Assembly (NCBI GenBank): GCA_004193555.1
Contig: RPGP01000040.1
Coordinates: forward strand, 811,127-875,126
DNA: 64,000 nucleotides
Reading direction: 5' to 3'
DNA from: Desulfobacteraceae bacterium Eth-SRB1
GTDB lineage: Bacteria; Desulfobacterota; Desulfobacteria; Desulfobacterales; ETH-SRB1
This document shows positions 34,741 through 35,827 of the stretch, piece by piece. The translations under genes and the position numbers were made by a program. Positions within the stretch are counted from its first letter, which is position 1, and every line of letters begins with the position of its first letter. The notes under the pieces were generated by a model. That model was not told the DNA's origin and did no database searches. It saw only the letters and a program-made list of their open reading frames with translations.

Positions 34741-35589
34741 TTACTCCGGATTCAGTATCATATTGTCGATCAGACGGGTTTCGCCCATTTTAACAGCAAG
34801 CGCCATCAGCGCCGGCCTGTTGATTGTTTCCATATCCGCAAGGGTTTCGGGATCACAGATTGAAATATAATCTATATTAGTCCCCTCATTGGATTTTATC
34901 AACCCTGAAGCTGCATTAATGATACTTGCCGCATCATTGACGCCGCCTTCAAGAAGTTCCTGAGCTTTTTTTAATGATTTGTATATGCAAAGAGCATTAA
35001 TCCTCTGCTCTGGCGTAAGGTAACTGTTTCTTGAGCTCATGGCAAGCCCGTCAGGCTCCCGCAGTGTCGGAACGCCAACAATATTTATTTCGAAATTCAG
35101 ATCGCGCACCATCCGGCGTATGACAATAAGCTGCTGATAATCCTTTTCACCAAATACAGCGATATGAGGTTTTACAAGGTTAAACAGTTTTGTAACAACT
35201 GTTGCAACCCCTTTTAAAAATGTGGGTCTGGAAATCCCGCAAAGGTGGTTTGGCAGTTTTTCCAGTTCAATATATGTTTGGAAATTCCTGGGATATAACT
35301 CCTTCCCGTCCGGGATAAAAATTACATCTGCCCCCTCTTTTTGCGCTAATTCAAAATCCCTGTCAAGGTTTCTGGGGTATGATTCAAAATCTTCTCCAGG
35401 GCTAAACTGGGCAGGATTGACAAAAATGCTTACAATTAGATTGTCTCCAAGCTCACGTCCTTTTCTGATAAGCGACAGATGCCCTTCATGCAAAAAACCC
35501 ATGGTTGGAACAAAGGCAATTGTTCTGCCAAGGCCACGCATCAGGTCGGAGTGTTCCTGCATTTCTGTTAATTTGGCAATTACTTTAAT
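34741..35589 (-). CDS. panC: pantoate-beta-alanine ligase, probable ATT start
   Basis: Joins pantoate and beta-alanine with ATP to give pantothenate. Motifs: FVPTMGFLHEGHLSLI (HIGH-like), FVNPAQFSPGEDFESYPR, VFGEKDYQQL, MSSRNSYLTPEQR. The first ATG (35562) has no Shine-Dalgarno and lies 9 codons inside the expected N-terminus. In the same frame ATT at 35587-35589 has GAGG 8 bases upstream and would give MKVIAKLTEMQEHSDLMRGL, putting 26 residues before VPTMG, as in E. coli PanC, and about 282 residues in all. No ATG, GTG or TTG is available nearer. The upstream tiny ORF ends about 20 bases before it. Confidence 0.93.
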   Translation of the reverse strand: MKVIAKLTEMQEHSDLMRGLGRTIAFVPTMGFLHEGHLSLIRKGRELGDNLIVSIFVNPAQFSPGEDFESYPRNLDRDFELAQKEGADVIFIPDGKELYPRNFQTYIELEKLPNHLCGISRPTFLKGVATVVTKLFNLVKPHIAVFGEKDYQQLIVIRRMVRDLNFEINIVGVPTLREPDGLAMSSRNSYLTPEQRINALCIYKSLKKAQELLEGGVNDAASIINAASGLIKSNEGTNIDYISICDPETLADMETINRPALMALAVKMGETRLIDNMILNPE

Positions 35590-35608: not shown

Positions 35609-35755
35609 TTATTCTGTCTTATCTTTTGCTTTCTTTTTTTCTGTCAACTGACAGGCGTTCCGCATTCAGGTGGAAATACCAAGCTTCGGCAGAATATAAA
35701 ACTGCGTGAGAAAATAGAAACCGATAATCAGCAGTATAATTATTGTTGATTTCAT
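35609..35755 (-). CDS. candidate 48-residue membrane selenoprotein (in-frame TGA)
   Basis: ATG 35755 has a strong GGAGG site. The frame encodes MKSTIIILLIIGFYFLTQFY (one membrane helix) then ILPKLGIST, meets TGA at 35666-35668, and reads on as MRNACQLTEKKKAKDKTE to TAA 35609-35611. On the minus strand CTGTCA-GT-TGACAG follows the TGA with the apical GT 17 bases downstream, within the spacing and loop rule (GU in apical loop) described for bacterial SECIS elements. The hairpin is followed by A's, not T's, so it is not an intrinsic terminator. A U....C pair would result. The alternative is a plain 29-residue peptide ending at TGA. Reading through would place the stop about 20 bases before the panC ATT. 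Confidence 0.5.
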
Positions 35756-35827
35756 TTATCCTCCAATTTAAAAAATTTTCTGGATATTTTCTGAGTCATT
35801 AAGCTCTTTTCTCTTTCGTAAGACTTC

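Follow-up and report, generated by a model that had tools for sequence, protein, structure and literature searches.

The window, a 64,000-nucleotide stretch of the Desulfobacteraceae bacterium Eth-SRB1 genome, carries on its minus strand what we judge, with a probability of roughly 94%, to be a genuine selenoprotein gene of an undescribed family (35609..35755), although selenocysteine (Sec) has not been chemically detected and its insertion in this organism is inferred from sequence. The gene comprises 48 codons, running from ATG 35755 through 29 codons to an in-frame TGA (35666..35668), predicted to be read as Sec at residue 30, and then through 18 codons to a TAA stop (35609–35611). The encoded protein is MKSTIIILLIIGFYFLTQFYILPKLGIST-U-MRNACQLTEKKKAKDKTE, where MKSTIIILLIIGFYFLTQFYILPKLGIST corresponds to the 29 codons before the TGA and MRNACQLTEKKKAKDKTE to the 18 codons after it. 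Both the ATG and the Shine-Dalgarno sequence GGAGG (35760..35764, minus strand), which is also present in most relatives, were verified, as expected from an earlier sequence-only reading that had proposed a well-initiated open reading frame at this site. SelB and tRNA-Sec, guided by a hairpin behind the UGA, would insert Sec at residue 30, and translation on to the TAA would yield a 48-residue protein in which a single N-terminal membrane helix is followed by a motif lying at the membrane surface and by a short tail that is mostly basic. Because the Sec codon resembles a stop and leaves only a 29-codon stub, the gene was overlooked by annotation. As we discuss below, the sequence-level tests of the selenoprotein assignment were positive, and none of the findings that would have refuted it (relatives that end at the TGA or lose conservation after it, or a genome without selB or selC) was obtained.

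First, the TGA is conserved within a family whose members continue past it. A search of 58 genomes, those of the window's own organism and its relatives, with TGA translated as a residue (E ≤ 2e-5) gave 51 matches in 48 genomes, each of which is interrupted by a single in-frame TGA and contains no further stop. In a profile search of the window's phylum, the family was found in 157 of 395 sampled genomes, and nearly all matches again contained one TGA; a further stop in a minority of the matches corresponds to the natural end of the frame in the extracted genes. We extracted 152 distinct Sec-form proteins, 45–74 residues in length, which share the motif [QN]-x-x-[IVL]-L-P-[KR]-x-G-x-x-T-Sec-x-x-x-x-Cys. 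The proline at –7, the glycine at –4, and Sec are invariant, and the threonine at –1 is present in 148 of these proteins. A cysteine follows Sec at +5 in 136/152 and within +9 in 144/152, with the second cysteine far away in six members and absent in two. Invariant residues occur before as well as after the TGA. The frame closes 14–41 codons past the TGA, and codons vary while the protein stays conserved. Because the cysteine is kept behind Sec and the frame runs on to a stop, conservation extends past the TGA, in accord with the earlier suggestion that the text behind it is coding.

The family is not confined to one phylum. It was present in 49 of 199 genomes of the phylum containing L110, presumably Acidobacteriota as L110 belongs to the Bryobacterales, and in 16 of 189 genomes of the phylum containing L109, possibly Myxococcota. 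The phylum of L112, a Chloroflexi MAG, yielded one Cys form (1/194 genomes) and no other member. A variant branch in the L109 phylum (L142–L145 and L148–L150) has the signature TU-[AM]VPxxRRxxR, as in TU-AVPxPRRSAR, together with a stable hairpin near CGCGCCGGTCGGCGCG; the second cysteine, where present, lies near the C-terminus of these proteins and not at +5.

Second, rare relatives carry cysteine in place of Sec. Exchange of cysteine and Sec at one position is a classic criterion for selenoproteins. When about 85,000 species genomes were scanned with the pattern [IL]LP[KR][LMF]G[IV][SPR]TC, four relatives with a Cys codon (TGY) at the TGA position emerged (L109–L112), in MAGs whose titles read Deltaproteobacteria, Bryobacterales, Cyanobacteriota, and Chloroflexi, and L131, L140, L141, and L146 are further Cys forms. 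These eight, compared to 152 distinct Sec forms, read straight through with TGC or TGT at the Sec site and provide the Cys homologues that the sequence-only reading had looked to for support. The expectation that Cys forms occur in genomes without SelB was borne out only weakly, as SelB was undetected in 3/8 Cys-form genomes compared to 2/21 Sec-form genomes of other phyla, the latter possibly incomplete assemblies. In L140 and L141, the Cys form is fused to a DUF302 domain, and a DUF302 gene also adjoins several Sec forms. The Cys-form gene L109 lies between a thioredoxin gene and a gene for a DsbD_TM/thioredoxin fusion.

Third, a bacterial SECIS-like hairpin, CUGUC-AGUU-GACAG, lies behind the TGA (35641..35654, minus strand). 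The sequence-only reading was right to place a SECIS-like element here, and the element proved to be real and covarying, but its drawing as CTGTCA-GT-TGACAG with GU at the tip needs a slight correction: a 2-nt GU loop is impossible, so the hairpin has a 4-nt AGUU loop on a 5-bp CUGUC/GACAG stem, and 16 nt separate the TGA from the apical loop. With a loop distance of 16 nt and G at the second loop position, the hairpin meets the bacterial SECIS consensus, in which the loop lies 16–37 nt from the UGA and has G as its first or second nucleotide (PMC13188914). In 38 gap-free members, 98.4% of stem cells were paired and 18 cells were compensatory; none of 500 shuffles reached the covariation score of the stem, and slid controls scored far lower. 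Stem columns 18 and 25 form U-A in 31 of these members, C-G in seven, and a broken pair in none. This swap is silent in the Cys codon but changes Thr38 to Ala, and since pairing is kept at the cost of the residue, the RNA pair appears to override the protein sequence. When each gene was compared to 200 synonymous-codon shuffles, the region after the TGA folded with a mean z of –1.88 over 145 distinct members, 81% of which fell below –1, whereas the control region before the TGA gave a mean z of –0.41. Because the column-shuffle counts ignore relatedness, we place greater weight on the synonymous-shuffle result and on the unbroken double changes.

Finally, the genome has the means to decode UGA as Sec. 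The window itself had shown no sel genes, and the selA, selB, selC, and selD genes sought on the strength of the sequence-only reading are all present elsewhere in the genome, which encodes a tRNA-Sec with a UCA anticodon (76 bits), SelB, SelA, and SelD. At a strict threshold, tRNA-Sec was detected in 339 of the 395 genomes of the phylum. Comparison of the two lists identified 16 family-positive genomes without tRNA-Sec at that threshold, SelB was found in 16/16, and every family-positive genome of the phylum thus has tRNA-Sec or SelB. Decoding of the UGA as Cys or Trp, through stop reassignment or a tRNA variant, could be imagined in light of extra SelB-like genes and two additional genes for tRNAs with UCA anticodons in the genome. 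We regard this as very improbable, however, as a normal selA, selB, selC, and selD set is present, a SECIS-like element directly follows the TGA of the selenoprotein gene, and the family occurs in many genomes of at least three groups; moreover, relatives in the family often terminate at TGA, which is therefore still a stop. That the TGA is an ordinary stop, giving a 29-residue membrane peptide followed by a conserved regulatory hairpin, is comparably hard to sustain, for although the hairpin is truly present and short hydrophobic peptides are common, the protein is conserved past the TGA to a clean stop (14–41 codons) while codons vary, the Cys forms continue through the same place with TGC or TGT, and the family-positive genomes of the phylum all have tRNA-Sec or SelB.

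Two features of the selenium machinery deserve separate mention. The selD gene of the window genome (L234, G000:C40:928886-929812) contains one in-frame TGA, and its selenophosphate synthetase thus appears, on sequence grounds, to be a selenoprotein itself. A second Sec-machinery cluster (L231, G000:C40:934000-951000) adjoins formate-dehydrogenase-like genes. It contains a SelB-like gene of 640 residues and another SelB-like copy that is split, both in tandem with two tRNA genes; these are identical 92-nt tRNA-Sec-like (UCA) genes that differ from the main selC.

The AlphaFold2 model of the 48-residue protein consists of one helix (residues 2–24; codons 35684..35752, minus strand) followed by coil, with a mean pLDDT of 71.3 and values of 86–87 over residues 1–20, consistent with the single membrane helix proposed previously. 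The Cys35 codon (35651..35653, minus strand) lies five residues past the TGA, exactly the Sec–Cys spacing that had been noted, and Cys35 is inferred to pair with Sec in a U-x4-C arrangement. The protein does not show a thioredoxin-like fold with UxxC or CxxU, as the model has helix and coil and the spacing is U-x4-C. Net charge rises from –0.4 in residues 1–6 to +2.0 past the helix; in 84% of members, the C-terminal side is the more positive. Based upon this charge distribution and the positive-inside rule, Sec and the mostly basic tail are predicted to face the cytoplasm.

The genes around family members offer clues to function. In a first analysis of 41 loci, no phylum-wide partner was found, and a recurring pattern emerged only with 124 loci. 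Relatedness was not corrected for in these counts, and related acidobacterial genomes contribute some of the signal; neighbor domains were named by Pfam, with the exception of SufS, TSUP, ArsR, and RND, which were named from sequence appearance without a Pfam scan. FmdB zinc-ribbon genes were adjacent in 26/124 loci, 25 of them on the same strand, with 28 hits within 5.5 kb (adjacency p = 2e-16 against a 20% background adjacency, without phylogeny correction). Genes for YgaP-type transmembrane domains were adjacent in 12 loci, thioredoxin genes in 10, and DUF302 genes in 7 of 7. Rhodanese (p = 0.27) and CcdA (p = 0.59) were not significantly enriched at adjacent positions in the 124 loci; the CcdA link is suggestive in L109, L085, and L089, but a single locus has CcdA as its immediate neighbor, and we set this candidate aside. 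No neighbor is universal, as all six tested partner families are missing within 400 bp in 80/124 loci. Representative operons are SufS–YgaP-TM–selenoprotein–thioredoxin–FmdB, MFP–RND–YgaP-TM–selenoprotein–FmdB, and ArsR–persulfide dioxygenase/rhodanese–TSUP–selenoprotein–DUF302, and ArsR, persulfide-dioxygenase, and TSUP genes recur within a few kilobases of the selenoprotein gene.

From these neighbors, we infer that the protein may act as a selenol/thiol relay anchored in the membrane, with sulfane sulfur as the most probable cargo, a proposal that is tentative and that we would put at somewhat less than even odds. The Sec/Cys pair would act as the relay, with the selenol taking sulfane sulfur or an oxidizing equivalent from a lineage-dependent partner; candidates are a rhodanese/YgaP-type protein, a cysteine desulfurase, a persulfide dioxygenase, a DUF302 protein, or an FmdB zinc ribbon. 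The nearby cysteine would then resolve the selenol as a selenenylsulfide, which thioredoxin would reduce. A broader possibility, which we hold more loosely, is that this widespread and nearly always Sec-using microprotein is the core of an unknown sulfane-sulfur/thiol relay in which FmdB, YgaP-type, DUF302, and thioredoxin proteins are exchangeable partners. The suggestion of the sequence-only reading that a redox or metal site lies at the membrane remains an inference, and the neighbors favor a thiol or sulfur role.

Alternatively, the protein might serve membrane proteins as a general thiol-disulfide or peroxide reductant, with thioredoxin or a CcdA/DsbD-type protein recycling it and with no particular tie to sulfane sulfur. 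In several families, a thioredoxin gene immediately precedes the selenoprotein gene, which fits this model, as does the placement of the L109 Cys form described above. Nevertheless, we consider it somewhat less likely, because the single adjacent CcdA gene gives it little support and because it leaves the YgaP, persulfide-dioxygenase, TSUP, and SufS contexts unexplained. A role in binding or transfer of soft metals or metalloids at the membrane, with Sec and Cys passing an ion to an efflux pump, seems more doubtful: in its favor are the RND/MFP pump genes near 11 loci, the copper-type P-type ATPase beside L078, and the zinc-ribbon nature of FmdB, but the RND pumps are adjacent in two loci only, the most telling operons concern sulfur (SufS, persulfide dioxygenase, TSUP, DUF302) or thioredoxin, and one Sec plus one Cys with variable spacing makes a poor conserved metal site. 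If the sulfane-sulfur/thiol relay is correct, it would also assign a role to the FmdB and DUF302 proteins, two families without established function to which the neighbors tie the selenoprotein.

Comparisons with databases and the literature support the novelty of the family that had been suggested as possible. No match above curated cut-offs was found in NCBIfam 20.0 or Pfam-A when 24 members were scanned; suffix_2_RND (NCBIfam, best E 0.0065) and DMAC1_Dmo2 (Pfam, best E 0.051) scored below cut-off and were treated as chance matches between short hydrophobic sequences. In the 2026 inventory of 119 prokaryotic selenoprotein families and subfamilies, no entry of Table 1 has the same domain, motif, or description, although the representative sequences were outside this comparison (PMC13188914). 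Older lists hold a few unnamed hypothetical proteins, notably GOS_A, for which the text of its source gives no motif (PMC2398784). The family is therefore new relative to Pfam, NCBIfam, and the literature searched, with the provisos, which form the main gap in this claim, that GOS_A is not excluded and that RefSeq was outside the search. Like the families of the 2026 inventory, it combines a UGA-encoded Sec, a downstream bacterial SECIS, a nearby cysteine, and some Cys homologues, but none of those families is a single-pass membrane protein of ~50 residues with LP[KR]xGxxTU and U-x4-C, and most have a domain identifier, often for a thioredoxin-like fold, whereas this family has none (PMC13188914). 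TsoB, a rhodanese/DsbD fusion with UxxxxU, is a different, domain-bearing protein (PMC13188914). By its authors' account, the recent prediction method deep-Sep may miss selenoproteins without Cys homologues (PMC12013277), and Cys forms are scarce in this family.

Members of 45–74 residues are very short selenoproteins, and the family adds a selenoprotein to about 40% of the sampled genomes of one phylum as well as to others. A strong preference for Sec without an enzyme domain is unusual, and the question of why selenium is used can be tested directly on a peptide short enough to synthesize. Among eukaryotic proteins, SELENOK and SELENOS are likewise small, cross the membrane once, and carry Sec in a tail on the cytosolic side, but their Sec lies close to the C-terminus and their SECIS elements are of the eukaryotic type in the 3'UTR. 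Membrane-anchored sulfur transfer, proposed here for the family, is the business of YgaP of E. coli, a membrane sulfurtransferase that joins a rhodanese to a YgaP-type transmembrane domain (PMC4730233), and YgaP-type transmembrane genes adjoin 12 members as noted above; unlike YgaP, however, the family has no rhodanese domain and no sequence match to it, and uses a different helix anchor bearing Sec. The acidobacterial ArsR–MBL/rhodanese–TSUP operons that contain the selenoprotein gene resemble the bigR operon for sulfide detoxification, which pairs an ArsR-type repressor with the sulfur transferase/dioxygenase Blh, but the bigR operon as summarized there does not include the selenoprotein (PMC5823870).

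Other arrangements are restricted to particular lineages. In L094, L096, L098, and L099, a glutamyl-tRNA-synthetase-like gene ends no more than a few bases from the selenoprotein ATG, and this near abutment suggests translational coupling in that lineage. In L123, L125, and L130, the gene immediately before the selenoprotein gene encodes a protein of ~100 residues, and in L123 and L125 it in turn follows an RND pump gene; the L125 copy, the one scanned, had no Pfam match. At the window locus, the neighbors panC and metK are uninformative on function. The gene does lie just before panC, as originally described, but among the loci examined a panC neighbor was seen only in this genus, and a conserved operon with panC or metK was rejected because the pairing was seen nowhere but in the window and in its nearest relative. 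The panC gene itself (34741–35589, minus strand) probably starts, judging from the sequence, not at ATG 35562 but at ATT 35589, which has GAGG 8 nt before it. The stretch IKVIAKLTEMQ, the usual strand at the N-terminus, precedes that ATG, no ATG, GTG, or TTG is available there, and both the ATT and the GAGG are kept in the nearest relative.
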